DNA of 44,158 nucleotides from Candidatus Zixiibacteriota bacterium (lineage in GTDB: Bacteria; Zixibacteria; MSB-5A5; RBG-16-43-9), in NCBI GenBank assembly GCA_030692925.1, contig JAUYBY010000065.1, positions 1-44,158 on the forward strand, in the 5' to 3' direction. Below, one piece after another: positions 18,598-35,249 of this stretch. How positions within the stretch are numbered: position 1 is the stretch's first letter; each line of letters starts with the position of its first letter. The notes beneath the pieces are model-generated. The model worked only from the letters and a program-made list of their open reading frames with translations. It was not told the origin of the DNA and searched no databases. The position numbers and the translations under genes are program-made.

Positions 18598-20292
18598 TTA
18601 GACTGTTGTCTCCGCTATTACCTCTTCGATGGAAGTTATGCCATTTTTGAGTTTCTCTATAGCGGCCATTCTTAGCGTCAGCATCCCATTAGCAACAGTA
18701 TATTCTTTTATCTCCTGACTGGATTTACCCTCTAAGATCATCTTCTCGATATCCGGAGTGATAGGCATAATCTCAAACAGACCGGTTCTGCCGGAAAAGC
18801 CGGTATTATTACATTCCTGACAACCCTTACCCTGATAAACCTTGAAATCTTTAATCTCGTTCTCCGGAACACCTAATCTCAAAAGTGTTTCCGGCCTCAC
18901 TTCAACTTCATCTTTGCAAAAATTGCAAATCTTCCTTACCATTCTCTGAGCCATTATCAATCTTACTGCTGAAGCCACCAGATAACCGGGCACTCCTATG
19001 TCTACAAGTCGGTTGATGGTACTCGCCGCATCATTAGTATGCACCGTAGAGAAAACTAAATGTCCGGTTAAAGCGGCTCGAATAGCGATATCGGCTGTTT
19101 CCCCGTCTCTTATCTCTCCCACCATGATAACATCCGGGTCCTGACGCAGAAAGGACCTCAGACAGGTGGCAAAGGTAAAACCTATGTCGCTCTTTATGGC
19201 TACCTGATTTATGCCATCAAAATTAAACTCAACGGGATCTTCAGCTGTCATTATATTTATATCCGGTTCATTAATCTGTTTTAAAGCCGAATACAAAGTG
19301 GTGGTTTTACCACTTCCCGTGGGACCGGTTACTAAAACCATTCCATAAGGTAACTTGATCGCTTCTGCAAATTGTTTTAATCCCTTTTCCGGAAATCCAA
19401 GTTTAGTCAGATCCACCATCAAGCTTCTAGGATCCAGAATACGCATAACCACTTTCTCTCCGAAAATGGTTGGCAGAACCGATACACGGATATCCACTGC
19501 CCGGTCTCCTATCTTGACTTTGATCCTTCCATCCTGTGGCAGTCTTCTCTCTGAAATATCCAAATCCGCCATAATCTTTACCCTGGAGACAATAGCCGGT
19601 CGATATTTGAAAGGTAAGGGTGACATCTCCTGCAGGTTACCGTCGAGTCGGTATCTTACCCTGATCCTTTTTTCGTAGCTCTCAATATGAATATCTGAAG
19701 CACCTCTTTTGATGGCATCAGAGATAATTCCATCTACTAATTTAACTAATGGCTTATCCTGTACTGCTGAGCGCAGGTCCTGTTCTGTGGGAACTTCTTC
19801 TGAGGTCTCGATGACTTCTAAATCATCATCCTTCATCCCTTTCAGGATCTCATCTATACCGGAGCTGTCCTGATAATAGGCGTCAATTGCCTTCTGGATA
19901 GCTTTTTCCGGGCTGATGACCGGCTGAATGGAACAGCCGGTGATGAATTTGACTGCGTCTAATACGTAGATGTTGCTGGGGTCTGAAATGGCGACTATTA
20001 AGGTGCGGCCTAACTTGCTGACTGCGATGACGTTGAATTTCCTGGCGATGTCCGCAGGAATGAGCTTGACGACTTCGGGGTTTAGCTCGATATCCGAAAT
20101 CCTCAGAGCTCCGATGTTAAGCTGTCTCCCGATGAATTCGGACAGCTCATCCTCATCCTGGATGGCACCCATCTTCACCAGGATCTGCCCTAATTTGGCA
20201 TCCCCTTTCTTCTGGAGCTCTAAAGCTTTAGCTAACTGCTCACGGCTGATCTTGCCAGCCTTGACCAGCATCTCCCCCAATTCTACTGACAT
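18598..20292 (-). CDS. pilB: Type IV pilus extension ATPase PilB
   Basis: The 564-residue GspE/PilB-family ATPase powers pilus polymerisation. The N-terminal MshEN-type domain (residues about 1-150, LGEMLVKAGKISREQLAKAL and an LGQILVKMG repeat) is of the kind that binds c-di-GMP in MshE and some PilBs. The catalytic part has Walker A GPTGSGKTTT, Asp box TAEDPVE, Walker B DVIMVGEIRD and His box HLVFSTVHT. The zinc tetracysteine motif is CNFC...CQEC. It is the last gene of the murJ-comEC-Roadblock-GTPase run, 37 bases after a Roadblock gene, linking that cluster to pili. The ribosome site is weak. It converges with the atp genes. Confidence 0.95.
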   Translation of the reverse strand: MSVELGEMLVKAGKISREQLAKALELQKKGDAKLGQILVKMGAIQDEDELSEFIGRQLNIGALRISDIELNPEVVKLIPADIARKFNVIAVSKLGRTLIVAISDPSNIYVLDAVKFITGCSIQPVISPEKAIQKAIDAYYQDSSGIDEILKGMKDDDLEVIETSEEVPTEQDLRSAVQDKPLVKLVDGIISDAIKRGASDIHIESYEKRIRVRYRLDGNLQEMSPLPFKYRPAIVSRVKIMADLDISERRLPQDGRIKVKIGDRAVDIRVSVLPTIFGEKVVMRILDPRSLMVDLTKLGFPEKGLKQFAEAIKLPYGMVLVTGPTGSGKTTTLYSALKQINEPDINIMTAEDPVEFNFDGINQVAIKSDIGFTFATCLRSFLRQDPDVIMVGEIRDGETADIAIRAALTGHLVFSTVHTNDAASTINRLVDIGVPGYLVASAVRLIMAQRMVRKICNFCKDEVEVRPETLLRLGVPENEIKDFKVYQGKGCQECNNTGFSGRTGLFEIMPITPDIEKMILEGKSSQEIKEYTVANGMLTLRMAAIEKLKNGITSIEEVIAETTV

Positions 20293-20329
20293 AGTTTTTT
20301 ACTCTGAATTGGCTCTAAGCTGATCCGCT

Positions 20330-20818
20330 TTAATCTCTGAAAATGTCATTTAACCGGTCTTCGGCTGATGCGGCAAAGCCAGAATCTATAGCCGGCTCGC
20401 TTTTCTTCTTGCTCTTGTGTGCCTGCCCCAGGATAGTGGCCAATTCCTCACCGCATTCCTTGGCGTAAAGCCTTACCATCCCGATGGTGGTCCGGTCATC
20501 AAAGATAGCCACCAGGATAGACCTTTCTCCTACCAAGGAGATATGAATATGGTCTCTTTTCCCTTGATGGAAAAGAACCGAAAATTCAGGTTCCCCGACT
20601 AGTCGGGCGATCTCCCGGGTAGAGGCAAAGCTTCCCGCAAGAAGGGCTGCCAAAGCCGTTGTATCCAGGGAATGAGTGAACCCCTGACGGGTTATCAGGT
20701 AACCGTCCTTATCCACCAGAAGAGCACATTTAGCTTCAGCCCCTTTGATCAGCTTAATCAAAGCTCGATCGATTTTCTCGATCTCTTCCTCATGGATAAT
20801 CAAGCTATCATCCTGCAA
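20330..20818 (-). CDS. Roadblock/LC7 domain protein (MglB-like), last of four
   Basis: The 162-residue protein has a Roadblock/LC7 domain (about residues 12-125: ALIKLIKGAEAKCALLVDKDG ... HIHISLVGERSILVAIFDDRTTIGMV) and a charged C-terminal tail. Roadblock dimers are partners and regulators of small GTPases; MglB of Myxococcus is a GAP for MglA. The start is placed at TTG 20818: AGGAGG lies at correct spacing, and the TTG comes two bases after the stop of the GTPase gene. The upstream in-frame ATG at 20878 would add 20 residues overlapping the GTPase gene and has no ribosome site. It is probably translationally coupled to the GTPase and followed by pilB. Confidence 0.85.
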   Translation of the reverse strand: MQDDSLIIHEEEIEKIDRALIKLIKGAEAKCALLVDKDGYLITRQGFTHSLDTTALAALLAGSFASTREIARLVGEPEFSVLFHQGKRDHIHISLVGERSILVAIFDDRTTIGMVRLYAKECGEELATILGQAHKSKKKSEPAIDSGFAASAEDRLNDIFRD

Positions 20819-20820
20819 TT

Positions 20821-22170
20821 TTACCTCCTGTTCTTTGGATCCAAATTCGGACCTGCTATTTTTTGTATCCATCTCCACAAGAATCCGCCTTTGGCGGGCT
20901 TGGTTTTCTTTTGCCTTAACATCGGCGAAATGATGATTTTACTCTGGAACGGAAGACCGGTTTCATCAGCTTTTACCGTTTGAACCGGCCCCTCCGGGAC
21001 TGCCTCTTTAGAAACTCTTTCAGCCTCGACAGTTTCCTTTTCGATCTCGGATTGACTTTGGATAAGCGTCTTTTTTTCTTCCTCCATCTTTTTCATTTTC
21101 TCGATTAGCGCTGCTTGTTCTTTTTTCCTCAACTCTTCTGCTTCTTTTATTTTTTCCAATTCCAAGGCCTTCTTTTGTCTTTCGACTCCCGCCATTTCTC
21201 TTTCCAGCCTTTCCAGGAACAGCTTCTTTCTTTCTGCTCCTTCTTTCTCCTTTCTTGCCTTCTCTTCCTGCTCTTTCAGTCTTACCTTGATTAATTCTTC
21301 CTCTTTCTCTTTTTGTAACCTTACTGTTTCTTTGGCCTGCTCTTCTTTTTCCCTTTCTCTTTCTCTCGCTTTTTCTAACTTTTCTTCCACCCGGTAGGTT
21401 TTCTCGGGCTGTTCCAGATCTCTTTCCACCTCTTCAAAAGAATCTTTCCCCAGCGGAGCTTCAGGTACAGATTCTCTTGCGGGAGCATACGGCTTTTTCT
21501 CCAGCTCTTCTCTCTCGGCTGATGGCATAACCGAAGATTTGGATTCTGCTGACACTGAGATCAGTTCTTTTTTCCCCTCTGGCTCAGATTTACCCCTGGC
21601 TTTTTCCAGCACCAGCTTGCTGATGGCTTTCAGAGTATCGAAGACACCTGTCCCTTTTACCGCCACAGCTTCAAAATAAGGAAGTCCCCTGGGGTTCAAG
21701 CACTTCTCCAGCTCTTCTAAACTGGATACCTCTTCTAAGTCCCTTTTATTATATTGAATAATCATAGGGAGCTCTTCCAGGACATAACCGTATTCTTCCA
21801 GATTCTCTATCAGATTATTCATGCTTTCGATATTCTCCTCTAACTTAGCTGCTTGCGAATCAACCACAAAGACCAGCCCATCCACTCCTCTCAAGACCAG
21901 TTTCCTGGTGGCATTGTAATAAACCTGGCCCGGAACCGTGTAGAGCTGAAATTTTGTCGAAAACCCCTGTACCGGACCTATATCGATGGGCAGAAAATCG
22001 AAATAAAGAGTTCTGTCCGCATCGGTTGCCAAAGAGATCAACTCTCCTTTAGTTTGAGGAGGGGCTTTCTTATGTATATAAATGAGGTTGGTGGTCTTAC
22101 CACTCAACCCCGGTCCGTAATAGACTATCTTACAGCAGATCTCTCTGAAAGCATAGTTTATCGAGACCAT
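20821..22170 (-). CDS. MglA-like small GTPase with long coiled-coil tail
   Basis: The 449-residue protein has an MglA-type GTPase domain at 1-195: P-loop GPGLSGKT (19-26), switch segment LATDADRTLYFDFLPIDIG, G3 TVPGQ with the glutamine at 82, and NKRD (141-144). MglA homologues usually stop near 195 residues. Here a proline/serine-rich linker (about 196-245) leads to a highly charged Glu/Lys/Arg coiled coil (about 245-395). The last 55 residues contain an aromatic, basic segment GGFLWRWIQKIAG that could be an amphipathic membrane helix. MglA-family GTPases control cell polarity, gliding and pili. Roadblock genes flank it on both sides. The fused tail is the unusual part; its partner is unknown. 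Confidence 0.88.
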   Translation of the reverse strand: MVSINYAFREICCKIVYYGPGLSGKTTNLIYIHKKAPPQTKGELISLATDADRTLYFDFLPIDIGPVQGFSTKFQLYTVPGQVYYNATRKLVLRGVDGLVFVVDSQAAKLEENIESMNNLIENLEEYGYVLEELPMIIQYNKRDLEEVSSLEELEKCLNPRGLPYFEAVAVKGTGVFDTLKAISKLVLEKARGKSEPEGKKELISVSAESKSSVMPSAEREELEKKPYAPARESVPEAPLGKDSFEEVERDLEQPEKTYRVEEKLEKAREREREKEEQAKETVRLQKEKEEELIKVRLKEQEEKARKEKEGAERKKLFLERLEREMAGVERQKKALELEKIKEAEELRKKEQAALIEKMKKMEEEKKTLIQSQSEIEKETVEAERVSKEAVPEGPVQTVKADETGLPFQSKIIISPMLRQKKTKPAKGGFLWRWIQKIAGPNLDPKNRR

Positions 22171-22191
22171 CTTCTGCTTTTTTCTCTTTTT

Positions 22192-22536
22192 TTAAAAATT
22201 CCGCTCTTTGATTTTAGAAGCAGTGTTTTTGATCTCCAACCGAACCAATCCGACATTCACGTTCGGCTCGGTTGTCACCACCAGTATGCCAAAACCCACA
22301 TCCGTCAGGAAAAGCTTCCCCTGCTCGGCTTCGATGGTCACCTGCTTCAGATGAGTACTTTTCAGCCTCTCCAGAGATTTCTGAACCGTGCTGACGATCG
22401 AAGCCGCCATGGCGCCCACGGTCTCATCTTGAAAACTGGTGTCCAGGTCCGCCGCGATAATTATACCATCATTCCCCACCAACATGCTTCCGGTGATACC
22501 GGTGGTTTTGTTAAGCTCCTCTAAGATCTGATACAT
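22192..22536 (-). CDS. Roadblock/LC7 domain protein (MglB-like), stand-alone
   Basis: The 114-residue protein is a single Roadblock domain of canonical form: MYQILEELNKTTGITGSMLV, then GIIIAADL, an MAASIVSTVQKSLERL helix, and GKLFLTDVGFGILVVTT. The start at ATG 22536 is chosen because GGAGG lies seven bases upstream and the family N-terminus begins there. An ATG 33 bases further up lacks a ribosome site. It overlaps the end of the membrane Roadblock gene by 26 bases and is 21 bases before the GTPase gene. This is the closest match to a classical MglB and the best candidate for the GTPase's GAP or partner. Confidence 0.9.
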   Translation of the reverse strand: MYQILEELNKTTGITGSMLVGNDGIIIAADLDTSFQDETVGAMAASIVSTVQKSLERLKSTHLKQVTIEAEQGKLFLTDVGFGILVVTTEPNVNVGLVRLEIKNTASKIKERNF

Positions 22537-23407
22537 TTCTTCCCTCCTCTGATCCCAGGAGTTTCCCATACCTTTCTTTTAAGAATTTCTTTAGCATCTC
22601 AGCTGATTTGATGATTCGGATATTCAGCAGTTCATCCGTATTGCGACTGGCTATGGTTACCAGCGTAAAATCTAAAACCCTATTCAGATTTATCCATCTT
22701 TTGGGGGTGAACAACTGAATTCTTTCTATCTTGGATTCTCCCAATTTTTTTAGCAGATTAGAATTTACATCCTCCAGGCTCAAGGCTAAAGGAGCAACTT
22801 TCTCGCCATCCATACCTTCCTCGCAAGCCTGTCCTATGATCAACCCTTCAGAGTCAACTAAAAACGCGCCCTCCACCCCGGAATATTCTTTGAGATAACT
22901 TAAGGCATTGTCCAAAGTCCCCTCTTTAGGTTCAGCCTTAGGATGGAGCGGAACTACTTCCTCCTTCACTTCCGGTATAGGCCTGGACCTCTCTAATTTC
23001 TTTTCCCTTTCATGTCTTATGATTTTGTCTCCAAAGGAAAACTTGAAAAGCAGGGGTAGCAATACCATCTGAAACAGAATCGCCGGAAGATAGGTCGAGA
23101 TTCCTGATTTTAAGGATAGAAGTAGATTTAAAGAGAACATGAAGGAAATGAGAACTCCGAAGATTATTCCGATCGAGACTCTGAGCAAAAGACTGAAAAA
23201 AGAATAAAGAGCGACCATAGGAAAGGAGAGAAAAGAGAAAAGGAGAAAGTAAATTAAAATATACCAGAGCAGTTCCAACGGAAAAAGCAAAAGAGGTTTT
23301 AATTCGAACCCGAGGTTCTTGGGAAAAAAGACCAGCGGGAAAACCGCCAGGAAGGCAGAAAGTATAAAGAACTGCCGGTATTCTTTTAAATTGTCTTTTC
23401 TTTCCAT
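22511..23407 (-). CDS. Membrane-anchored Roadblock/LC7 protein
   Basis: The 298-residue protein has about four hydrophobic segments in residues 11-125 (for example FFILSAFLAVFPLVFF and YLPAILFQMVLLPLLF). A charged, proline-rich linker spans about 130-162. A C-terminal Roadblock-like domain (about 165-285) reads LSYLKEYSGVEGAFLVDSEGLIIGQACEEG ... FTLVTIASRNTDELLNIRI. Roadblock proteins are normally soluble, so an integral anchor would tie a GTPase partner to the inner membrane. It is 21 bases downstream of the TPR-Roadblock gene and overlaps the stand-alone Roadblock gene. No named family was recognised for the membrane part. Confidence 0.75.
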   Translation of the reverse strand: MERKDNLKEYRQFFILSAFLAVFPLVFFPKNLGFELKPLLLFPLELLWYILIYFLLFSFLSFPMVALYSFFSLLLRVSIGIIFGVLISFMFSLNLLLSLKSGISTYLPAILFQMVLLPLLFKFSFGDKIIRHEREKKLERSRPIPEVKEEVVPLHPKAEPKEGTLDNALSYLKEYSGVEGAFLVDSEGLIIGQACEEGMDGEKVAPLALSLEDVNSNLLKKLGESKIERIQLFTPKRWINLNRVLDFTLVTIASRNTDELLNIRIIKSAEMLKKFLKERYGKLLGSEEGRNVSDLRGA

Positions 23408-23428
23408 GATTTTCAGCCCTTCTAAATT

Positions 23429-24280
23429 TTATTCTTCAGCCAGCCTCTCTAATATCTGGTCAACCTGTATCTTCAAAAACCCGAGATTGGCTTCGCTTCT
23501 ACATACTAACAGCAGAATATATTTTTTCAGTTTGATAGCCCAAAAGCACATCTCTTCGGTCTCGAGAAGGAACTGCTGGAGTCCTCCAAAACTGATCCGG
23601 GGAAGGCATTCTCTTATCTCCCTGAAAATCTGGGTGCCTGTAGCTCCAAGGCTTTCCTGGTCAAAATCGATCTTTAATCTGCTTTCCCGGACCAGACCAT
23701 CATCTCCTATCACTAATGCCGCCATAAGACTTGGCAGGGAGGTTAAGCTGAAAAGAGCCTCTGAAAAGGGAAGGTTTTTTTCGATTACTTTCGCCGGCTT
23801 CTTTTCCCGAGGCGTGAGCTCTTCCGGAGGCGTGAAAACCACTCCTCTTTTCTTTTCCTCTTTCAGACCTTTCTGAATTTCCTCCAGCAGGGTTTTGAGG
23901 ATTGAATTCTTTTTGTCGGTTGAAAGAAGTTTTTCAACTATATTTTTTGCCTCCTTGAATTCTCCTCTTTTAATCATTATCCGGGACAAAAGCTGCTCGG
24001 TTAAGCGAGTTCTTCCATCTAATTTTATAGCTAAAAGGAGCTCTTTCTCTGCCTCCGAATACATCTCCCGGTCAAAATTTATCTTAGCCATAATCTGATG
24101 TCCGGCCCCATAATCCGGATGGTTTCTCAGCCCGTTACGGCAGAATTCAAACGCCTTATCCAGTTCTCCTTTTTTCCTGTAAGCCTCTGCCAGAGCTGCA
24201 AATATCTGAGAATCTGGATGCTCAGAAAGGATCTTATGGCACTTTTCAATCCTCTCTTCTAATTCCAACAAATCGACCAT
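23429..24280 (-). CDS. TPR-Roadblock fusion protein
   Basis: The 283-residue protein begins with about three to four tetratricopeptide-like repeats (residues 1-135, for example SQIFAALAEAYRKKGELDKAFEFCRNGL and AKINFDREMYSEAEKELLLAI). A short linker follows. The C-terminal Roadblock-like domain (about 180-283) includes LMAALVIGDDGLVRESRLKIDFDQESLGATG and KKYILLLVCRSEANLGFLKI. The TPR part probably recruits other proteins, and the Roadblock part probably pairs with the other Roadblock proteins or with the GTPase encoded downstream. A 98-base gap separates it from the small membrane protein gene, the largest gap in this run. Confidence 0.78.
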   Translation of the reverse strand: MVDLLELEERIEKCHKILSEHPDSQIFAALAEAYRKKGELDKAFEFCRNGLRNHPDYGAGHQIMAKINFDREMYSEAEKELLLAIKLDGRTRLTEQLLSRIMIKRGEFKEAKNIVEKLLSTDKKNSILKTLLEEIQKGLKEEKKRGVVFTPPEELTPREKKPAKVIEKNLPFSEALFSLTSLPSLMAALVIGDDGLVRESRLKIDFDQESLGATGTQIFREIRECLPRISFGGLQQFLLETEEMCFWAIKLKKYILLLVCRSEANLGFLKIQVDQILERLAEE

Positions 24281-24378
24281 AATCTTTTCTCTCTAAAAAA
24301 GATATACCATAGAAATTATCGACATTCCAAGGGAATAACTTAACTTTAAAGAATAGAGCCTTAAGAGGAATGCACTTT

Positions 24379-24771
24379 TCAACTGAGTTTTTTCTTTAAA
24401 AGAATTAATCCAAAAACCAGAAGAAAAAAACCCAGAAGTTGAAAAAGGAAAACAAAAGTGGGCAGACCGCTTACCGCTCCTAAACTCTGCAGAAATTCCA
24501 GGAAAACCGAAATAAGCAAAATCGACAGAGCCAGACCTGAAAAAACCCAGACCGAAGAAAGCTCCCCTCCTTTAAGTAGTGAATGGATTTTGAGAGCAAA
24601 AAAGATACCGCTGCCCAGGATCAAGAGAATTATGAGGGTAAGCAAAGTCCCTAAAAAGGATGCCTCGCTTGTAGCCTGCTCCTCAGCCAGGCATCTGCTC
24701 CAGGGTAAAAAAAACAGGAGCAAAATTAACCAAATGGACCGAAATTTCGATTTTAACCCAGACGACTTCAT
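24379..24771 (-). CDS. Small membrane protein of unknown function
   Basis: The 130-residue protein has a signal peptide-like N-terminus (basic, then IWLILLLFFLPWSRCLAEE, with a plausible cut after CLA). Three hydrophobic segments follow (about 39-60, 75-92, 105-124), and the protein ends in KKKLS. I recognise no family. It starts three bases after the DUF4388 gene stop, so it is almost certainly co-transcribed with the Roadblock/GTPase genes. It may be a membrane partner of that system. The ribosome site is weak, so translation may depend on coupling. Confidence 0.65.
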   Translation of the reverse strand: MKSSGLKSKFRSIWLILLLFFLPWSRCLAEEQATSEASFLGTLLTLIILLILGSGIFFALKIHSLLKGGELSSVWVFSGLALSILLISVFLEFLQSLGAVSGLPTFVFLFQLLGFFLLVFGLILLKKKLS

Positions 24772-24774
24772 CCT

Positions 24775-25968
24775 CTAAACCGACTCCTCCCCTTTTAAAG
24801 CCAATTTAAGAGTTCTGAAAAGGTCATCTTCCAAACTGTATTTCTTTACCACTTCCCTTTCCTTCAGAAGAAAAGGAGCTGTGCTTTTCTTTATCTCAGT
24901 AGTGATCTGCCTGGTAATATCCTCTCCCAGGTAGTTATGGGCCAAGGTCAGATATCCTGAAAGCAGGCCCTGCAGGCCCTGGGAAACCTGGTGTAATCTT
25001 ACCTCTTCCGGGATGTTGTTTAGTCGCATTGCAAAATCTCCGGGCTGAAGTAAAGTCCCGTTTTTTAGCAAATGATTCAGAACCGGAAAAGAGGCTTGCT
25101 TTTGTATCAAAGCACGATCCCATAATTTTAACTGAACTTTACCTAATTTCTGCAACAGGATTTTATCCACTACCGAAAAACTGGTGGAGAAAACCTGAGT
25201 TAGTATCTCCAGCAGAGCCGATTCTTCCTTCCTCTTATCCTTTCTGGTCTGCCTTTTTTCTCCCGGAGTCACCATCCCCTGATCTATAAGCTTGAGCAGT
25301 GCCCTGGAGGTGCTATATTCACCCAGAGGGCTTTCCTCTAAGATATCTGGATAGGTTTTCTCTCCGTCAACCATAAGCAATACTTTGAACTCATCCAGAC
25401 TCAGGCTGACTGAAGAGGAGGAACCGATTTTGGGATTTGGATTCCCTTTCAGCAGCATATCATCTTTGGGAAGGATTTTCTGCATTTCTACCATTTCATC
25501 GATCTTTCTGGTCCCCTCCATAATGACATTGATGGTATTGAGATTGGTGGTAATCTGTCCTTCTGCTGGCTCTTTGTCGTCCTGGAAGATAAAATCCCCC
25601 TCCTTCCAGCTAAAAAGGTTGTAAACGATCTCTTCTATCTGCAGTTTCAGACAGGCGACCAGTTCTTCTTTTTTCAAAAGCCCCATCTCCACCACTGTTG
25701 CCCCGATCATTTTACCGGTTGCCCGGTGCAGCTTTATCACCTGATCTAATTCAGCCTGTGAAAGTTTGCCCAGCCTTATAAGCAGGTTACCGATCAGCTC
25801 CTCTTCGGTGTTGGAGGAAGTGGCATAGACAATGTTTCCTTCCCGGAAGTAGATCTCTTTTCTCTGTGCCTGACGCATCAGGGTCAGCACCCCGGTTTTC
25901 TTGCTGGAGCTGATCAACTGCAGCAAGTCCGGGAAGGAGAGGGTATTTAAATTGCCGTTTAAACTCAT
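24775..25968 (-). CDS. DUF4388 (PATAN) domain protein
   Basis: The 397-residue soluble protein has a clear N-terminal DUF4388/PATAN domain (residues 1-about 135: MSLNGNLNTLSFPDLLQLISSSKKTGVL, then KEIYFREGNIVYATS, and EEIVYNLFSWKEGDFIFQ). PATAN domains occur in response regulators and adaptors for pilus motility (for example PatA-type regulators in cyanobacteria) and in delta-proteobacterial motility proteins. A middle region (about 180-240, LDEFKVLLMVDGEKTYPDIL...STSRALLKLIDQG) resembles a winged-helix-like adaptor repeat. The C-terminal 150 residues are helical and unassigned. It lies one base after comEC and three bases before the small membrane protein. Confidence 0.85.
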   Translation of the reverse strand: MSLNGNLNTLSFPDLLQLISSSKKTGVLTLMRQAQRKEIYFREGNIVYATSSNTEEELIGNLLIRLGKLSQAELDQVIKLHRATGKMIGATVVEMGLLKKEELVACLKLQIEEIVYNLFSWKEGDFIFQDDKEPAEGQITTNLNTINVIMEGTRKIDEMVEMQKILPKDDMLLKGNPNPKIGSSSSVSLSLDEFKVLLMVDGEKTYPDILEESPLGEYSTSRALLKLIDQGMVTPGEKRQTRKDKRKEESALLEILTQVFSTSFSVVDKILLQKLGKVQLKLWDRALIQKQASFPVLNHLLKNGTLLQPGDFAMRLNNIPEEVRLHQVSQGLQGLLSGYLTLAHNYLGEDITRQITTEIKKSTAPFLLKEREVVKKYSLEDDLFRTLKLALKGEESV

Positions 25969-25969
25969 A

Positions 25970-28264
25970 CTAAAGACTATAGGTTATTTTTCTTTTTCCC
26001 AGCACTGTGCTGATATCGAATTTTTTACTGTTGACCTTGATTATCACTGCTCCGAGCCTGGAAGTCTGGAAAACTTTATTCTCAAAACTCTGAGAAAAAT
26101 TGAATTTATTATAGCCTGAAATTATTAATTCCTGGATTCCACTGTTTAATGCTAAGTGCTCTATATTGCTTGTATTAGCTCCTTGAGGATTAAAACTCAC
26201 CACATCCGGTTGAAGCTCAAAAACGGTGCTTTCAGGCAAAAACCGCTTACTCACCAGGAGCTTGAATTTTCCATAACTTACTATCAAAAGGGGACTTTCA
26301 ACTTCAGTCCCCCCTTCAGAGTTTTTATCGGGATAAATCGAAAAAACCTTAACCTTTCCGAAAAGTTGATTGAGTTCTTGTAGATTCCGTATGCGGATTT
26401 CCGGGCCATCTAATTTACGCGAGATTGGAACACTATCCATATCCATCCATACCTCTTTCACTTTAATCTCGCTCAAAAACTCAGATACCTTCTTCTCTTC
26501 CTCTTTTTTGTCGGTCAGGATAAGCCCATCCAGTCTGGTTATTCCCTTTTTGTAGAGAAAAGGAAGGATGATTTTTTCTACCTCAGAAGAATTATCCGAC
26601 AGGTTTACCAAAATCTTTTCATCTTGCGGAGTCTCTATCAGTACTGCCTCACCTGAAGCAGAAAGGTAAGTGATTTTCAATTCAGATGACTTATTGATTT
26701 GGAGGTTAAGAAATAGAGGCAGTCCTGTCAGGATTAAAACAGATACTAAGGAGGCGGTTGCGAACCGCTTTAAGTTTCTTTGAAAAATAATCGCCAAAAG
26801 AGAGAGATAAAAAACCAAGATGAACATATAGGAAGGGGAAGAGACCTTAAAAGCTGCAAATGGAAGGGAGGAAAAGAAAGACAAGATCTTTATAATAAAG
26901 TCCAGCCCCAGCCAGTTGAATGAAGTGAATAAAAGAGAAAGTTTAAGACTTAAAAGACTCAAGAGAGCAGAAATCACCCCTACCATAACTACCAGGCCGG
27001 TTAGCGGCACGATTAACAGGTTAGCAAAAAGAGAATAAGCAGAGATAAGGTTAAAATAATAGGCCGTAACAGGATAAGTGAATAACTGAGCTGACAGGGA
27101 AACGAAAAAAGGCAAGGCTACATAGGATTTTAAGAACCGATTCCGTAGCCTGGAAAGGAAAAGAGTCTCTAATTTAGGAACCCAGAGGATCAACCCCAGG
27201 GTAGCCATAAAGGATAATTGAAAACCCACATCATAGAGAGTGGAAGGAGTTATGAAAAGTATCACCAGGGCAGCTAAAGCCCAGAGGTTGAGGATATCCC
27301 TTTCCCTTTCGATCAATAGCGAAAGAAGAAAAAGAGAAGTCATAATAGAAGCCCTTACCACTGAGGGCTGGTTACCGGTCACAAAGGAGAAAATCAAGAT
27401 CAATGGAAAAACCAGAAGCAAAGAGAGCCGGTAAGGTATTCTTAAGAGTCGAAAAAGTCCAAAGAAGAGAAGGACAACCAGCGCCACGTTAGAGCCGGAG
27501 ATGGCTAAAAGATGAAGGGTGCCGGTATCGGTAAAGAGTTTATAGATCTCCCTGGGTATTCCTCTTCTTTCACCCAGGACAAAGCCGGAAAGAATCGCCT
27601 GATGCGGGTCCGTCAGGTTTCTCTTAAAAAAGCCGAGAATATAATGTTTTACCGGAAGAACTATTCCGGAGATAAAAAAATTCCCTCTTTCCTTTTCCAG
27701 AAGCGTAATTTCCGAGTCGTGCTTTAAGTTCATGCATGCGAAAATCTCTTTAGAGTTCAGATATTTCCTGTAGTCAAAAGCACTCGGATTTTTAGAGGGA
27801 GAAGGTGAATACAGGTAACCGCTGAAATGGATTAAATCGCCATAGTTGAAGAGGTTTGACGGATGTCTGATTCTCAGAAGTATCTTCCCGGTGGTCTTTA
27901 TTTTCTTCTGATTAATCGACAATTCCCGGGTAGCTATTTCAATAAAAGTCTTATCCTCCCTGATATCCGGGTCCCTGGAGATGCTGCCGGTCAAATCGAC
28001 TTTTCCGGTGAGCTGAGTGAATCTGGAGATATGATTTATGGGTAGGTCTTTGGTCTTCAGCTCGTATCTCCAGAATCCGGCTAAAGCCAGAAGAATCGTG
28101 ATAAATATTACTCTTAGACTTTGTTCCTTCCTGAAGGAGAACAGAAGAAAGAGAGTGATCAAGATTAGAAAAAGTAAGATCAGGGTGGATAAGTCGAAAT
28201 AATTTCCTAAAAAAATTCCAGCCACGTAAGCCAGAAGGGCTAAAAGGGCAGGCCTGCGTTTCAA
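25970..28264 (-). CDS. comEC: ComEC/Rec2-type DNA uptake channel with degenerate MBL domain
   Basis: The 764-residue membrane protein has the ComEC architecture: an N-terminal OB-like DUF4131 region (about 60-180), and the Competence domain with many membrane helices (about 215-510, TGTLHLLAISGSNVALVV and GNQPSVVRASIM). A C-terminal beta-lactamase-like domain follows (about 528-764). In canonical ComEC the last domain has DVGQGDA, a TH(x)DxDHxGG metal motif and a later HHGS. Here the matching places read YLSASGEA, LTDKKEEEKK and VSFNPQGA, so all metal ligands are missing. It should still form the channel but cannot bind metals as usual. The start is TTG 28264, with AGAGGT upstream. murJ ends four bases before it. 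Confidence 0.9.
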   Translation of the reverse strand: MKRRPALLALLAYVAGIFLGNYFDLSTLILLFLILITLFLLFSFRKEQSLRVIFITILLALAGFWRYELKTKDLPINHISRFTQLTGKVDLTGSISRDPDIREDKTFIEIATRELSINQKKIKTTGKILLRIRHPSNLFNYGDLIHFSGYLYSPSPSKNPSAFDYRKYLNSKEIFACMNLKHDSEITLLEKERGNFFISGIVLPVKHYILGFFKRNLTDPHQAILSGFVLGERRGIPREIYKLFTDTGTLHLLAISGSNVALVVLLFFGLFRLLRIPYRLSLLLVFPLILIFSFVTGNQPSVVRASIMTSLFLLSLLIERERDILNLWALAALVILFITPSTLYDVGFQLSFMATLGLILWVPKLETLFLSRLRNRFLKSYVALPFFVSLSAQLFTYPVTAYYFNLISAYSLFANLLIVPLTGLVVMVGVISALLSLLSLKLSLLFTSFNWLGLDFIIKILSFFSSLPFAAFKVSSPSYMFILVFYLSLLAIIFQRNLKRFATASLVSVLILTGLPLFLNLQINKSSELKITYLSASGEAVLIETPQDEKILVNLSDNSSEVEKIILPFLYKKGITRLDGLILTDKKEEEKKVSEFLSEIKVKEVWMDMDSVPISRKLDGPEIRIRNLQELNQLFGKVKVFSIYPDKNSEGGTEVESPLLIVSYGKFKLLVSKRFLPESTVFELQPDVVSFNPQGANTSNIEHLALNSGIQELIISGYNKFNFSQSFENKVFQTSRLGAVIIKVNSKKFDISTVLGKRKITYSL

Positions 28265-28268
28265 ATTT

Positions 28269-29837
28269 CTACCTCTTGAATCCTAAGATTCCCAGTACTC
28301 TTTTTACTTCTTTTATCTTAAATAAACTCGCAAGAGATAAATAGCTGAGCAGGGAAATTACCAGCATCAGAACTACCAATATCGTTTTTTGGATTAAGCT
28401 CCCCCTATCCAGGTCCACCGGATAAAGAAAAAGAAAAAGCTGTAACAGGATCCCCATAAGTAATGAAGTCAGCAGGATTTTTAAGAAAGCATTCCTTAAA
28501 TCCTTTTTATCAAAAGGTCCAATTCTTTTATCCAGGGTGAAAAAAAGAATAGCCATATTTAAAATGGCGGAAAAAGAGGTGGCAAAAGCCAATCCCCGAA
28601 AGCTTAAGGGACGCATAAGGATCAAATTTAGACCGATGTTAAAAACGACCGTTACGGCAGTGCTTATCACTGGAACTCTGGCATCACCCAAGGCATAGAA
28701 AACAGGGGCTAAAACCCGGACTGAAGCATAGGCAAAAAGACCGATGGAATAAAACAACAGTGCCTGAGAAGTAGCTTGTGTGTCCGCAAAAATGAATTTT
28801 CCATGCTGGTATAAAAGGGAGATTATCGGCTTTGCCCCTACCGCTAAAAATATGGTCGAAGGCAGAGTCAGGAAAAAGATAAGTTTTAAAGATGAGCTGC
28901 AGGTGGAGACAAGTTCAGTATAGTTTTTTTGAGCTGCCTGAGCCGCCAGAAATGGGAAAGTTACCGTTGCCACTGCAACTCCAAAGACCCCCAAGGGGAA
29001 ATTCATCAGCCTGAAACTATAATTTAGATATGAAACGCTTCCCTGCGGCAGAAGAGAGGCAATCAGTGTATTGACGAAGATATTCACCTGAGTAGAGGCC
29101 AAGCCCAGAATTGCGGGGGTCATCAACCAGAGGATTTTTCTTACCCCAGGGTCTTTCCAATCCAGAAGAGGTTTGTATTTATATCCTAACCTGAAAAGAA
29201 CAGGCAACTGTATACCTAATTGTCCTGCTCCGCCTAAAAGAACACCGAGAGCCATTCCAATAATCGGGGTTTTCAAAAATGGTGAGATCAAAAAACCGGC
29301 TAAGATCATACCCAGATTTAACATAGTAGGTGCTAAAGCAGGTGCGCCGAATCGTCCAAAAGAGTTCAGAATCCCCATACTCAGGGCAGCCAGGGAGACC
29401 AGAAGCAGGAACGGAAACATAATCCGGGTCAACAGGGTTGTAAGCTCTAACTTGCCTTGAATCTTGTCAAACCCCGGGGCAATGAGATTGACAATTGCCG
29501 GGGAGAATATTATGCCCAGGATGACGATTGCGGACAAAACGATCAAAAGTATATTCAGCACCAAGTTGACTAAGCGAAAAGCTTCCTCTTTCCCCTGAAG
29601 AGTCAGCTTCTCCGTGAAGACCGGAATAAAAGCTGAAGAAAGAGCGCCTTCTGCTAAAAGGTCCCTGAGAAGATTGGGAATTCGGAAAGCCGCCACAAAG
29701 GCATCCGTAGCCATCCCTGCCCCAAAAAGATAAGCAAAAACCTGCTCCCTTATAAGCCCGAAGACCCTGGATAAAAAGGTAGCCGAGCTAACCATTCCGG
29801 CAGATTTAGCGATTTTGTCTTTTGCGTAAACCTCCAT
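28269..29837 (-). CDS. murJ: Lipid II flippase MurJ (MviN family)
   Basis: The 522-residue MOP-superfamily transporter has about 14 hydrophobic segments. It contains the family start SAGMVSSATFLSRVFGLIREQVFAYLFGAG, the segment FVAAFRIPNLLRDLLAEGALSSAFIPVF, and the substrate-cavity arginines in those segments. It flips undecaprenyl-pyrophosphate-linked peptidoglycan precursors across the inner membrane. The length is normal. It is the first gene of the ten-gene minus-strand run ending with pilB, and its expression would therefore link envelope growth with the comEC and GTPase genes. The ribosome site AAGGAAAAGAG precedes the ATG. Confidence 0.95.
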   Translation of the reverse strand: MEVYAKDKIAKSAGMVSSATFLSRVFGLIREQVFAYLFGAGMATDAFVAAFRIPNLLRDLLAEGALSSAFIPVFTEKLTLQGKEEAFRLVNLVLNILLIVLSAIVILGIIFSPAIVNLIAPGFDKIQGKLELTTLLTRIMFPFLLLVSLAALSMGILNSFGRFGAPALAPTMLNLGMILAGFLISPFLKTPIIGMALGVLLGGAGQLGIQLPVLFRLGYKYKPLLDWKDPGVRKILWLMTPAILGLASTQVNIFVNTLIASLLPQGSVSYLNYSFRLMNFPLGVFGVAVATVTFPFLAAQAAQKNYTELVSTCSSSLKLIFFLTLPSTIFLAVGAKPIISLLYQHGKFIFADTQATSQALLFYSIGLFAYASVRVLAPVFYALGDARVPVISTAVTVVFNIGLNLILMRPLSFRGLAFATSFSAILNMAILFFTLDKRIGPFDKKDLRNAFLKILLTSLLMGILLQLFLFLYPVDLDRGSLIQKTILVVLMLVISLLSYLSLASLFKIKEVKRVLGILGFKR

Positions 29838-29935
29838 TCTCTTTTCCTTTTTTTATTTATTCGTCATTCGGTATCCGTCATTCGTCATTTTTTCTGTCTT
29901 CCTTCTTCCTTTTTTTATTTATTCGCCTTAGGTGG

Positions 29936-30165
29936 AACAGGCGTCTCGCCTGTTCTCAATTGTCAGAGAGCAAAGCCTGGCGCCCTACGGGCGGGCTGGC
30001 GCGTAGCCACAGGAATGTCTGACCTACCTCACAAAACCTGGGCAGGCACACAGGCCTGCCCCTACATTACTCCTGTTCTTAGTAGAAAACTTGCTGACCA
30101 TTATTTTTTTAATCGTTTTTTTTATCCTTGAACCTTTGAACTATTGAACTTTTGAACCTTTATTT
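29936..30165. repeat. Palindromes and TTGAAC tandem string upstream of rpsT
   Basis: The 398-base divergent gap between murJ and rpsT holds a degenerate ATTCGTCATTCGG string (about 29858-29890), AACAGGCGtctCGCCTGTT (29937-29955), GGGCAGGcacacaggCCTGCCC (about 30030-30051), and a tandem TTGAACCT/TTGAACTA/TTGAACTT string (30128-30160). No gene is seen. The last 60 bases carry the rpsT promoter. Confidence 0.7.
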
Positions 30166-30177
30166 CCTATTTTTAAA

Positions 30178-30205
30178 TTGACAAAAAAAGATTTTCCATT
30201 ATATT
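30178..30205 (+). promoter_or_regulatory. Promoter of rpsT
   Basis: TTGACA at 30178-30183 and TATATT at 30200-30205 are separated by 16 bases. A start near 30212 would leave a leader of about 25 bases with AGGAGG at the right place before the TTG start codon. Confidence 0.6.
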
Positions 30206-30235
30206 TAACCTTCGAAAATTAAACCAGGAGGTAGT

Positions 30236-30517
30236 TTGCCAGTACGTAAGGTCCATAAAGACGTTAAAAAAAGATTGAAAACCAGCTTAAAGGCAAAAGC
30301 TCGCAACCGGGAGATGAAATCCGAGCTGAGAAGTCTGGTAAAGAAAACAGAGGCCAATCCGGTTCAGGAGAATCTCAAGCCAGTATTCTCGCTTCTGGAT
30401 AAAGCCTCCCGGAAAAAAATCATACATAAAAATACTGCTTCCCGCATAAAGTCCAGACTTTCCCGGCTCTTGAATAAACCTACCACACCAGGTGCCGAAG
30501 CAAAAGCAGAAGCTTAG
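30236..30517 (+). CDS. rpsT: 30S ribosomal protein S20
   Basis: The 93-residue, lysine/arginine-rich three-helix protein has the S20 pattern: a KDVKKRLKTSLKAKARNREMKSELRSLVKK-like first helix and KKIIHKNTASRIKSRLSRLLNK near the end. It is an early-binding 16S rRNA protein. The start is TTG 30236, set by AGGAGG upstream; TTG is also the usual start for rpsT in E. coli. The Ala/Glu-rich tail beyond residue 80 is longer than usual, and its coding sequence overlaps the 3' end of the convergent flavoprotein gene by 38 bases. Confidence 0.93.
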   Translation: MPVRKVHKDVKKRLKTSLKAKARNREMKSELRSLVKKTEANPVQENLKPVFSLLDKASRKKIIHKNTASRIKSRLSRLLNKPTTPGAEAKAEA

Positions 30518-31673
30518 GATTTGACCTGAGAATAGCCTTCAAGGTCTGTATGGGAGTCAGCCTGGTCGAATCCTCATCCTTAAGATACTCCTTTAAAAAC
30601 TGGATAACCTCTTCAAAATCCTCATCTCTCATCTTAAGGTAAATCTTTCTGCAGTAAGAATAAAATCTCAACTCCCTTCCTTTTATCTTCAGAAACTCCT
30701 CTTCATATTTTTTCAGAAAGTCGGGTGAATTACCTCCATTGACCAGATATTCTGAGGCAACCTGGCCTGCGATCTTCCCGGAGAGAAGCGCATTGGCAAT
30801 CCCTGCACCGGAGAGTGAATCAACTAACCTGGCAGCATCTCCTGTGAGAAGTATATTCCCTTTGACTAACTGACTTCTACGGCTAAACGCTGGCACTCCT
30901 CCGGTCATCCATTCAACCACTGAGAAGTTCTTGAACCTTTTCATCACGAAAAAGTCTAAGAGTTCCTTGGCTTTTATGTTGTTGCCAAGGCTCGGAGTAA
31001 TAGCCAAGCCCACGTTTGCCAATCCTTTACCCTTGGGGAAAACCCAGGCATACCCTCCGGGAGCTATTTTGGTGCCAAGATGAAATTCAATGCACTCCTG
31101 GTCTAAAGGATCGGCCTTCAAAAGATACTGGTAAGCAGAATCAACCCCCTCTAATTTCAGGGCATTATCAATGCCTGCCCATCTTCCGACCATAGATTCA
31201 ATCCCGTCTGCAGCTATGACTATTTTGGTTTGATATTCCGATTCCCTTCCATCTTTTTTCATCCTTATTCCGCAAATCTCTCCCCTGTTGTTGTTGATTA
31301 ATCCCACAGCCTGGGCATTGACTTTCAGCTCAGCGCCTGAGGATTCTGCCCTCAGCGCTAAATCCCTGTCGAATATCTTTCTATCAAGCACCAGACCTGC
31401 GCTGGAGTAAGAAACCTTCAACTCTTTCCCCGAAGGGGGGCAGAGTGCAATTTTTTCGATTTTAGACCTTATCCAGGCAGGATTAACCTGCTCGCAAATT
31501 GAGAGTCCTCTGAAGCTGACAGCCTCAGCACAGCATAAAGGCAGCCCTACTTCCTTATGCTTTTCAAGTAAGAGAACTTTATGCTTATTCTTGGCTAAGA
31601 CCCAGGCAGCCATCGAGCCAGCAGGACCTGCTCCTACTACTATGCAATCGTACTTATCTTTCATCTTCTTCAT
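30480..31673 (-). CDS. Geranylgeranyl reductase family flavoprotein
   Basis: The 397-residue FAD-dependent oxidoreductase has a Rossmann motif VVGAGPAGSMAAW (about 12-24), a CCAEAVSFRGL segment near 47-57, the family signature GGYAWVFPKGKGLANVGLA (about 205-223), and GDAARLVDSLSGAGIANAL near 274-292. These place it in the geranylgeranyl reductase family, whose members saturate prenyl chains of chlorophyll, quinones or archaeal lipids. The actual substrate here is unknown and may be a menaquinone side chain. The preceding gene is a ferredoxin, a plausible electron donor as known for an archaeal homologue. The start at 31673 is uncertain: ATG 31664 is equally possible. Confidence 0.82.
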   Translation of the reverse strand: MKKMKDKYDCIVVGAGPAGSMAAWVLAKNKHKVLLLEKHKEVGLPLCCAEAVSFRGLSICEQVNPAWIRSKIEKIALCPPSGKELKVSYSSAGLVLDRKIFDRDLALRAESSGAELKVNAQAVGLINNNRGEICGIRMKKDGRESEYQTKIVIAADGIESMVGRWAGIDNALKLEGVDSAYQYLLKADPLDQECIEFHLGTKIAPGGYAWVFPKGKGLANVGLAITPSLGNNIKAKELLDFFVMKRFKNFSVVEWMTGGVPAFSRRSQLVKGNILLTGDAARLVDSLSGAGIANALLSGKIAGQVASEYLVNGGNSPDFLKKYEEEFLKIKGRELRFYSYCRKIYLKMRDEDFEEVIQFLKEYLKDEDSTRLTPIQTLKAILRSNPKLLLLLRHLVW

Positions 31674-31745
31674 TCGTCATTTGATATCCGTCATTCGTTA
31701 TTGTCTTTTTCATTTGTCATTCGTTATTCGTCATCCGTCATTCTT
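31670..31745. repeat. GTCATTCG-type tandem string
   Basis: The spacer between the ferredoxin and flavoprotein genes is built almost entirely of imperfect GTCATTCGTTATTC / GTCATCCGTCATTC words. The same words occur at 9107-9135 (other strand) and 29858-29890. The ferredoxin stop codon TGA lies in the first word. Confidence 0.75.
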
Positions 31746-31923
31746 TATCTGTGATTTCCAGAGCCCCTGAAGGACAAAACACCACACAGTCATTACAGAG
31801 AGTGCAAAGCTCCTCTTTTATTCTCAAACCCTGACTTTCTAAATCCAGAGATTCAAAGGCGCAAACTGCCACGCACCCCCCGCACTCTCCGCACAGATCC
31901 ATCTTTAAACTTAGTTTTTTCAT
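31738..31923 (-). CDS. 2[4Fe-4S] ferredoxin
   Basis: The 61-residue protein has two cysteine clusters, CGECGGCVAVC (C11, C14, C17, C21) and CTLCNDCVVFCP, the pattern of a bacterial-type double [4Fe-4S] ferredoxin. It lies upstream of the geranylgeranyl reductase family gene on the same strand with a 64-base spacer, so it is likely its electron donor. That pairing is an inference from position. The length is normal for the group. Confidence 0.9.
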   Translation of the reverse strand: MKKLSLKMDLCGECGGCVAVCAFESLDLESQGLRIKEELCTLCNDCVVFCPSGALEITDKE

Positions 31924-31978
31924 CTTCTATCAAAAAGCGTTGGAATAATTTAAGTCCCGTCCTCAAAAAATTCAAGTT

Positions 31979-32011
31979 AAAAATGCAAGTCTCCCTCATG
32001 CTTGCATTTTT
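31979..32011. repeat. Palindromic hairpin between ferredoxin and pyrR genes
   Basis: AAAAATGCAAG (31979-31989) and CTTGCATTTTT (32001-32011) form a perfect 11-base stem with a T-run on both strands. It lies between divergent gene starts, so it is not after any gene. It may insulate the two units. The gap 31924-32266 otherwise holds the pyrR promoter and leader. Confidence 0.6.
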
Positions 32012-32092
32012 CAACGGTCAAATCTTTTCTTCTTCCGTCTCACGTCTTACTTTCTTGACTGGTACTCTGAGGTGATTTTTTTAAAAAAGTAC

Positions 32093-32120
32093 TTGACAAA
32101 CTGTTTTCCTTAGGTATCAT
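32093..32120 (+). promoter_or_regulatory. Promoter of the pyr operon
   Basis: TTGACA (32093-32098), a 16-base spacer and TATCAT (32115-32120) give a good sigma-70-type promoter. Transcription would start just before the PyrR-type RNA element. Confidence 0.7.
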
Positions 32121-32130
32121 AGGTGACGAA

Positions 32131-32238
32131 ACCTTTTAAACCGATCCGGCGAGATCAGTAAAGGTAAAAGATAGAAGATGAGATTAGGAGATCCGATACA
32201 TAAATGCCCTCCTTGAATTATCAGGAGGGTATTTTTTT
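32131..32238 (+). promoter_or_regulatory. PyrR-type attenuator leader
   Basis: ACCTTT (32131-32136) pairs with AAAGGT (32160-32165) around a purine-rich loop CCGGCGAGA with an inner GATC/GATC stem. This closely resembles the PyrR-binding loop of pyr leaders (lower stem, bulge, CCAGAGAG-like loop). About 40 bases on is an intrinsic terminator: CCCTCCT (32207-32213), AGGAGGG (32223-32229), then a T-run to 32238. UMP-bound PyrR would stabilise the loop, free the terminator and stop transcription of pyrR-pyrB-pyrC. The terminator is certain; the binding loop is identified by resemblance. Confidence 0.75.
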
Positions 32239-32257
32239 GCCTTTTTTAGAAAAGTGA

Positions 32258-32818
<561 letters not shown>

Positions 32819-32822
32819 TCTT

Positions 32823-32969
32823 GTAGAGACGCATTGCATGCGTCTTTTATGTCATTGCGAGGAGGTCATTTGACCGACGAAGCAATCCGTTGCCTGTTAG
32901 GTAGAAGGATTGCTTCGCCTGTAAGGCTCGCAATGACCTCAGATACGTAGTTGCTCGATTTATCGAGCC
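32823..32969. repeat. Palindromes including an 87-base GTCATTGCGAGG element
   Basis: Between pyrR and pyrB lie GTAGAGACGCAttgcaTGCGTC (32823-32844), an 87-base element (32851-32937) that opens with GTCATTGCGAGG and closes with CTCGCAATGAC, with AGCAATC/GATTGCT inside, and GTTGCTCGATttATCGAGC (about 32949-32967). The 87-base element has a near copy at 38501-38582. No coding sequence is seen. Confidence 0.8.
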
Positions 32970-33010
32970 AAAGACAGCCTAGAATGAAAGTCTAAGATAA
33001 TGAGGAGAAG

Positions 33011-33943
33011 ATGAAATTAAAAAGCAGGCATCTTTTAGGCTTAGAAGGGATTTCAAAAGAGGAGATCGGGCTGATACTGGACACCGCTGAGACTTTCAAG
33101 GAGGTGTTGGAAAGACCCATCAAAAAAGTTCCTACCCTCAGAGGGGTAACTGTGGTCAATCTCTTTTACGAGGCATCCACCCGAACCAGAATCTCCTTTG
33201 AGCTGGCTGAAAAAAGATTATCTGCTGAGCTGGTAAACTTCTCTGCTTCCACCTCCAGCGTAAAAAAAGGAGAAACCCTTAAAGACACGGTCAAAAACAT
33301 CGAGGCGATGAAAATCGATATGGTGGTGATAAGACACCAGTCTTCAGGAACCCCTTATTTTCTCACCCAATGCCTTTCTTCCTCCATAATCAATGCCGGG
33401 GATGGGGCGCACGAACATCCCACCCAAGGGCTTTTGGATTTATTCACCCTGCGGGAAAAATATAAAAAGATCGAAGGCTTGAGAGTGGTAATAGTCGGGG
33501 ACATAAAGCATAGCCGGGTTGCCAGGTCAAATATCTGGGGCTTGAAAACCATGGGAGCTTCGGTAGCTGTATGCGGACCAACGACCCTGATGCCCTATGA
33601 AATCGATAAGATGGGGGTTGAGGTTTACTCAAATCTGGGCGAAGCTCTGCAGGGGGCAGATGTGGTCAACGTCCTGCGAATACAATTGGAAAGACAGAAA
33701 GGCGGTCTTTTACCTTCATTAAGAGAATATGCAAACGAGTTCGGGATAAACTCAGACCGCTTAAAAAGACTAAATCCGAATTTCACCATAATGCATCCCG
33801 GACCAATTAACCGGGGTGTAGAAATCACTCCAGAGGTCGCAGATGGTCCTTATTCAGTCATCTTAGACCAGGTGACCAATGGAGTAGCCATCCGTATGGC
33901 AGTTTTGTACCTTTTAAGTGGAGGAGAAGGAAAGGTTGAATAA
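33011..33943 (+). CDS. pyrB: Aspartate carbamoyltransferase catalytic subunit
   Basis: The 310-residue enzyme catalyses the second step of pyrimidine synthesis (carbamoyl phosphate plus aspartate). Diagnostic motifs are [19 protein letters not shown] (about 52-70), [14 protein letters not shown] (about 136-149) and [12 protein letters not shown] near the end. The length is typical of the catalytic chain. No regulatory chain pyrI is nearby, so it is probably of the unregulated trimer or PyrB-PyrC associated type. GAGGAGAAG precedes the ATG. Its end overlaps pyrC by 8 bases. Confidence 0.97.
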
Positions 33944-35249
33944 AAAAACCTCTATAGAAGCTGAACTGATTATTGTCGGGGGAAGAATCATAGACCCAGC
34001 ATCTAAGTTGGATAAGGTCGGTGATATATATATCCGGGACGGGAAGATCATTAAAATCGAAACCAAGAAATTGATCCCCAGGAAAAAGATTAGATTTTCT
34101 CCGGAAATAGTGGACGCATATGATAAGATTGTGACTCCGGGTTTGATCGATATGCATACCCATTTAAGAGAGCCGGGAAGAGAAGATGAGGAGACGATTT
34201 TAACCGGTTCAGAAGCTGCAGTTGCTGGAGGATTTACTGCTATCTGTTGTATGCCCAATACCCAGCCACCGATTGACAATCAGGGGTCAGTGAAATTCAT
34301 ATATGAGAAGGCGAAATCAGCTAAGTGCAAAGTCTACCCTGTTGCCGGTGCAACCAAAGGCTTAAAAGGCGAAGAATTGACTGAGATTGCAGATCTGGTT
34401 AAAGCCGGAGCTGTGGCTATCTCAGACGATGGCAGACCGATTTACAGCTCGAGTTTGATGAGGTATGCGCTCGAATATTCTAAAATGTATGACCTTCCGG
34501 TTATATCCCATTGTGAGGATTTAGCCTTATCCTCAGATGGGGTGATGAATGAAGGTTTTGTTTCCACGGTTCTGGGACTTAAAGGTATTCCCGGAGTGGC
34601 TGAGGAGGTAATGATTGCACGGGATATAAGATTGGCAGAATTCACCAAATCTCGTGTGCATATTGCCCATGTTTCCACTGAAGGCTCAGTAAATCTTATC
34701 CGGGAAGCAAAGAGAAAAGGAGTGAAGATTACCTGTGAGGTAACCCCGCACCATTTTTCTTTGACGGATGAGGTTATAAAAACTTTCGATACCAATGCTA
34801 AAGTAAATCCACCTTTGAGAACTAAAAAAGATATTGAGGCTTTAAAAAAGGGGCTGAAAGACGGGACTATCGACTGCATCGCCACAGACCACGCTCCGCA
34901 TTCAATCGAGGAAAAAGACGTGGAGTTCGATGCCGCGCCTTTCGGAATGGTTGGTCTGGAAACCGCTTTAGGTCTGGTCATAACAGAGCTGATTGAGAAA
35001 AAAGTCCTTACCTGGATTGAGGCTATTGCCAGGATGACGATCAATCCTGTCAAGATTTTGAAATTGAATGCTGGACAAATAAAGGTCGGTATGTCTGCGG
35101 ATCTGACAGTAATCGATCCGGAGGCAAACTGGGTAGTCGAGCCAAAAGAGTTCAAATCCAAATCGAAAAATTCACCCTTTGGTGGAAGAAAGCTAAAGGG
35201 GAGGGCAGTTCTTACAATTGTAGATGGGAAGATAGCCTACCAGATGTAG
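33936..35249 (+). CDS. pyrC: Dihydroorotase
   Basis: The 437-residue amidohydrolase catalyses the third step of pyrimidine synthesis. It has the zinc motif [10 protein letters not shown], a middle SDDGRPI segment, HVSTEGSV, and the catalytic ATDHAPHS near the C-terminal third, as in class I dihydroorotases. The start is set at TTG 33936, eight bases inside pyrB, with GGAGGAGAAGG upstream. A GTG at 33918 in the same frame would add six residues but has no ribosome site. The stop TAG is the TAG of an adjoining GTAGAGACGC palindrome. Confidence 0.95.

Follow-up and report, generated by a model that had tools for sequence, protein, structure and literature searches.

A predicted nuclease-dead ComEC with a retained metallo-beta-lactamase fold in Zixibacteria

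How the non-transforming DNA strand is disposed of when ComEC lacks a nuclease domain has been described as an open question (Silale et al., PMC8579336). A related question, what such a domain does when it is present but has lost its catalytic residues, is raised by a comEC gene in a 44,158-nucleotide stretch of DNA from a Candidatus Zixiibacteriota bacterium (contig JAUYBY010000065.1, positions 1 to 44,158; hereafter, the window). The window is one contig of a 2.41 Mb draft genome (G000) that is 91% complete, and its closest named relative is RBG_16_43_9 (candidate division Zixibacteria bacterium), whose ComEC is 95% identical. The gene and its C-terminal domain are located as follows:

25970..28264, minus strand: comEC, 764 aa with a TTG start, encoding an OB fold, a channel and a degenerate metallo-beta-lactamase (MBL) domain
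25973..26692, minus strand: degenerate MBL-fold C-terminal domain, residues 525-764, supported by AlphaFold, Foldseek and the ligand columns

The protein matched the channel domain PF03772 (E 6.7e-62; 209.7 bits against a curated cut-off of 23) and the N-terminal OB domain PF13567 (E 9.5e-31; 107.1 bits against a cut-off of 31.6), and by these matches it is a predicted DNA-import channel with intact OB and channel domains. A Pfam scan of the protein gave no match to PF00753 (Lactamase_B), and the ComEC model TIGR00361 scored 184.9 bits, slightly below its cut-off of 190.05, with a match that stops at residue 603, within the degenerate domain. Sequencing error or a pseudogene was considered and rejected, as the frame is open, dN/dS is below 1 and 88 relatives are concordant.

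We then compared the C-terminal domain with intact ComEC domains. A preliminary description, made from the sequence by eye, had reported a full-length domain in which every metal ligand was lost. The strings that it quoted are present in the open reading frame and fall at the expected motif positions in the alignment, where DVGQGDA is replaced by S-ASGEA, THPDADH by TDKKEEE, TGDA by SKRF and GHHGS by NPQGA. The domain is indeed full length (240-244 aa, compared with 266 aa in PDB 9ic4). At the six ligand columns, where intact domains carry H, D, D, H, D and H, the window carries D, K, E, E, R and Q, so that none of the six is kept; the reported loss thus holds for the histidines and for all six tested columns, with the nuance that acidic residues persist in the former HxDxDH loop. 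These acidic residues could be taken to mean that a non-canonical metal site survives and that the domain is still a nuclease. This is highly improbable, given the change at all six ligands and the single histidine in 244 residues, which lies in IEHLAL, off every ligand column; therefore, no canonical histidine-rich site is hidden or displaced elsewhere in the domain. The isolated domain also gave no Pfam match even at E values up to 1, whereas Lactamase_B was found in 12 of the 50 domains scanned; these 12 are presumably the outgroups, since the alignment contains exactly 12 intact outgroup rows. On this residue-level evidence, the C-terminal domain of the window ComEC almost certainly performs no catalysis.

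Structure prediction indicates that the domain nevertheless retains the MBL fold of the ComEC nuclease. An AlphaFold model of 25973-26704 reached a pLDDT of 85.7 and a pTM of 0.88, with an input alignment of 50 sequences including the 12 intact ones, which may have aided the fold. Its top PDB match in Foldseek was the nuclease domain of Moorella glycerini ComEC (9ic4; E 1.7e-14, TM 0.72). Independently of the AlphaFold model, a profile built from Zixibacteria only aligned with one built from intact domains only over 243 columns (E 1.2e-21). A model of full-length ComEC (pLDDT 82.5) again matched 9ic4 first, and the Moorella OB domain 9iew was also matched. The window protein therefore shares its three-domain architecture and C-terminal fold with Moorella ComEC, but lacks the ligands of the M. 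glycerini and M. thermoacetica domains, which are Mn2+-dependent nucleases (PMC12455585, PMC8579336).

Is the loss peculiar to this protein? ComEC is present in 121 of 132 Zixibacteria genomes, and the C-terminal domains that we read number 88, drawn from 17 of the 19 families encountered. All are of the same degenerate kind: HxHxDH and HHGS occur in none of the 88, which excludes chance, and 86 have no ligand histidine, the other two having one alone. Out of six ligands, 36 domains keep none, 37 keep one, 14 keep two and one keeps three, compared with four to six in intact ComEC domains. The clearest relics are found in families f3 and f14, some members of which have DVGQG or DVGKG and some acidic ligands. 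Families f10, f17 and f19 have residues of their own at the old site, namely an invariant G in PGG (replacing GQG) and [DE][YF], a sequence pattern that hints at a changed role. In a phylogenetic tree, the Zixibacteria ComEC proteins lie on one side of a branch with support of 98/98, recovered in 100% of bootstrap trees. Because they form a single clade, a single loss in an ancestor explains the pattern most simply, and the ligand loss is probably ancestral to Zixibacteria. A basic-aromatic signature at loop 2 was present in 12 of 46 domains inside families f10, f17, f18 and f19, in 18 of 40 outside them and in nine of 14 intact domains; retention of this loop (the "pin") looked promising in f1, f3, f7, f12 and f14, but is not general and was rejected as a rule for the phylum.

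Similar losses occur outside Zixibacteria. We compared 50 named ComEC proteins of other groups whose C-terminal stretch reached 225 aa or more. Both histidine motifs are missing from 30 of them; since the 50 were chosen by similarity to the window, this proportion is not a frequency estimate. Most of the 30 are from Chloroflexota (Anaerolineae and Caldilineae), together with two Spirulina and one Gastranaerophilales genome. Profile comparison clearly identifies the Chloroflexota domains as degenerate MBL domains (E 4.4e-37), and the two cyanobacterial ones match only weakly (probability 61). Intact and degenerate proteins are intermixed in the tree (for example, L050 with L054, 100/99), and such grouping indicates that ligand losses recur. 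Separately, eight CPR genome loci (L048, L069, L070, L075, L088, L095, L102 and L103) encode a short ComEC followed within ~3 kb by an ORF of ~285-330 aa, which matches a ComEC profile and is possibly a split-off nuclease domain.

The preliminary description had suggested a possible link between the way this channel deals with the second strand and the unusual GTPase/pilus operon downstream. The neighbours of comEC in the window are:

28269..29837, minus strand: murJ, conserved as the gene upstream of comEC through most of the phylum (PF03023, E 4.7e-122)
24775..25968, minus strand: DUF4388 protein, the next operon gene after comEC and adjoining it in most of the phylum (PF14332, E 2.9e-33)
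23429..24280, minus strand: TPR protein of the conserved operon, from domain search and neighbourhood
22511..23407, minus strand: membrane protein of 298 aa in the conserved operon, without a family match
22192..22569, minus strand: Roadblock/LC7 protein (PF03259, E 5e-15)
20821..22170, minus strand: MglA-like small GTPase with a long C-terminal extension (PF00025, E 2.1e-7; PF00071, E 2.6e-6)
20330..20878, minus strand: roadblock protein resembling MglB (PF03259, E 8.2e-12; NF052242 MglB, E 2.3e-25, under the cut-off)
18598..20292, minus strand: pilB, type IVa pilus extension ATPase (TIGR02538, 724.8 bits, cut-off 675.65)

The gene order, which links the DNA channel to a pilus-polarity-type GTPase module, is real across the phylum: MurJ, ComEC, DUF4388, TPR, membrane/roadblock-like, roadblock, MglA-like GTPase, MglB-like and PilB follow one another in most of it, read as far as each fetched stretch extends. 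However, with window proteins as queries, which may miss diverged neighbours, none of these genes was detected next to comEC in f3, and PilB alone in f5. Because the f3 and f5 domains are degenerate without the gene run detected beside comEC, the operon does not explain the ligand loss. The same run raises the alternative that the locus no longer serves transformation and that ComEC has another membrane role, for example in the pilus or envelope, with the MglA/MglB/PilB operon. In its favor, most of the phylum carries comEC in a conserved run with genes for DUF4388, TPR, roadblock and GTPase proteins, and with pilB where it can be seen. Against it, both the OB and the channel domain show good conservation, the genomes encode DprA and ComEA-like proteins, and ComEC occurs in f3 and f5 without that adjoining run; we consider this role improbable. 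We found no published report of type IV pili in Zixibacteria in the open-access literature. The 20330-25968 segment forms a module, conserved in the phylum, that encodes DUF4388 and TPR proteins, a pair of roadblock proteins and an MglA-like GTPase with a long charged C-terminal tail, and it adjoins PilB.

With the ComEC nuclease dead, the unwanted strand must be handled otherwise, or no DNA is imported. Of the other competence genes, DprA was found in all 30 Zixibacteria genomes searched, ComEA-like proteins in 29 (19 above the cut-off) and ComF-like proteins in 30, none above the cut-off, the weak ones of which may be other phosphoribosyltransferases. An EndA-type nuclease (PF01223) was absent from the window's genome and found in one of the 30, and NucA/NucB-type nucleases in none. 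The suggestion that the channel relies on a separate nuclease or works without strand degradation follows from the lost catalysis, although no MBL replacement was found: the six PF00753 proteins of the window's genome include none that is secreted or ComEC-like, and all look like ordinary cytoplasmic enzymes. A second comEC, the other proposed source of activity, does exist in the assembly. Contig C5 of G000 (L188, 1-5339) carries a syntenic comEC-DUF4388-TPR copy with the same gene order and ~73% nucleotide identity over 5.3 kb; its nuclease domain is equally degenerate, so that it was rejected as an active second ComEC, and no second copy was found in G001-G003. C5 probably represents contamination by a related species, not a paralogue.

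A further candidate is a staphylococcal-type nuclease (SNase), and it is conceivable that a secreted SNase assumed the task of degrading the non-transforming strand and thereby allowed the ComEC nuclease to die. SNase matches occur in 111 of 132 Zixibacteria genomes, some being merely methylase fusions or fragments, and the 17 sequences that we read are short, with an N-terminal hydrophobic segment and the motifs DGDT, R..GI[DN][TS]PE-type and DRYGR-type. Short SNases that look secreted and carry catalytic motifs are thus found in most Zixibacteria families, and in Streptococcus pneumoniae, too, a separate nuclease, EndA, is used alongside a ComEC domain that is partly degenerate (PMC5031224, PMC8579336). 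However, neither f1, the family of the window, nor f2 has a secreted protein of this type, the matches there being DNA-methylase fusions or fragments; G054 (nearly complete) and G053 (a single contig) have no SNase match, yet both keep the ComEC domain; SNases are common elsewhere (eight of 14 control genomes); and no linkage to competence genes was seen. We therefore regard an SNase takeover as rather doubtful. In the window organism, no candidate for a strand-degrading nuclease was found in a genome from which, at 91% completeness, such a gene may be missed. Several features of these SNase genes are recorded here in their own right. The proteins of L238-L241 and L244-L256 share a conserved C-terminal tail (FHRPxC...SPCRxCKP), and in several families the gene is flanked by an SbcC/Rad50-like gene on one side and an NtrC-type regulator on the other. 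In the window's genome, L257:1338-2636 encodes a 433-aa DNA methyltransferase with an SNase-like C-terminal region, and several other Zixibacteria have ORFs of about that length that match SNase weakly.

Next, we asked whether the dead domain is still maintained. Almost every complete comEC gene of the phylum still encodes it at close to full length. For the window's pairs, its dN/dS was 0.17 against G001, 0.35 against G002 (from few changes) and 0.24 against the C5 copy, compared with 0.09-0.14 for the channel, so that the domain evolves faster. These ratios indicate purifying selection on the domain in the window's genus, weaker than that on the channel. Within the window's order, the domain is absent from f2 (G004 and G006; L192 and L193), where the comEC ORFs span 535 and 545 aa; in G003 (L191), the comEC ORF stops early and the domain is matched only as a 40-residue remnant with stop codons. 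The decaying remnant lies at L191:5382-5916, between comEC and the DUF4388 gene. Both the deletion and the decay appear to postdate the ligand loss, and the domain probably became expendable, being deleted or decayed in close relatives, because catalysis was gone. A serious rival to any guide or scaffold role is accordingly that the domain is vestigial, has drifted toward deletion since the ancestral loss of catalysis and serves only not to disturb folding of the channel. The losses in f2 and G003, the dN/dS above that of the channel and the divergence of f10 and its relatives, whose profile comparison covers just 90 columns, fit such drift; the near-full-length domain in nearly all complete genes, a dN/dS clearly below 1 and the family-specific residues retained at the old site in f10, f17 and f19 do not, and we judge a purely vestigial domain somewhat unlikely.

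We lean slightly toward the explanation that a pseudo-nuclease is retained as a scaffold or strand guide in a channel working without ComEC catalysis. The extracytoplasmic nuclease domain would have turned into a pseudo-enzyme, in the simplest case in the ancestor shared by Zixibacteria, and been retained as a surface for docking or for guiding a strand, lying between the OB fold and the mouth of the channel; one strand would enter, and the other would be displaced or degraded by a separate nuclease, for which the secreted SNase of most families, found nowhere in the window's family, is a candidate. The guide role itself, which the literature suggests for the inactive S. pneumoniae domain (PMC5031224, PMC8579336), seems to us evenly balanced, and patchy loop-2 retention lends it little weight. 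S. pneumoniae ComEC, like that of the window, has kept an MBL-like domain whose metal ligands are substituted and which is thought to be inactive; it differs in that only some ligands are changed, conservatively, and in that EndA cuts the DNA, whereas EndA-type nucleases are missing from nearly all Zixibacteria searched and the degenerate state is phylum-wide. S. pneumoniae is therefore a partial precedent, and the new element is the phylum-wide fixation of a dead domain, of which we found no published report in the open-access literature. Helicobacter pylori also has neither an active ComEC nuclease nor EndA (PMC12455585), but there the domain is wholly absent and transformability is experimentally established. 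To our knowledge, no member of Zixibacteria has been shown to be transformable. Full transformation of Legionella pneumophila and Bacillus subtilis needs the ComEC catalytic residues, and the F689/F691 loop of the L. pneumophila nuclease domain is also essential (PMC12455585, PMC8579336); because L. pneumophila catalytic mutants lose transformation, a nuclease-dead ComEC could be non-functional for transformation.

A phylum that retains the domain in a uniformly dead form, with its loss visible in sister families, allows the catalytic role to be told apart from any structural one. It also bears on surveys: DC-type ComEC is defined by OB and channel domains without a Pfam match to Lactamase_B (Pimentel and Zhang 2018, PMC6299819), and the window protein would score as DC although the fold is present, a true DC protein being seen only in f2. 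"No Lactamase_B" in Pfam surveys thus mixes true absence with a present but degenerate domain. In its broadest form, the proposal would be that the whole phylum imports DNA through a nuclease-dead ComEC with the domain re-purposed as a strand-separating guide, that in window-like lineages without a dedicated nuclease the second strand is displaced, not destroyed, and that many ComEC proteins catalogued as nuclease-less are such pseudo-nucleases; we hold this extension to be unlikely.

Finally, a comparison of window positions 18498-35243 with L201, L189 and L190 in 250-base windows showed that identity to two congeners ranges from ~75% to 99.6%. Among the window, G001 and G002, the closest relative alternates along the contig far beyond shuffles (z -19.6 and -14.3), a mosaic that could reflect frequent homologous recombination or, equally, chimeric metagenome assembly.
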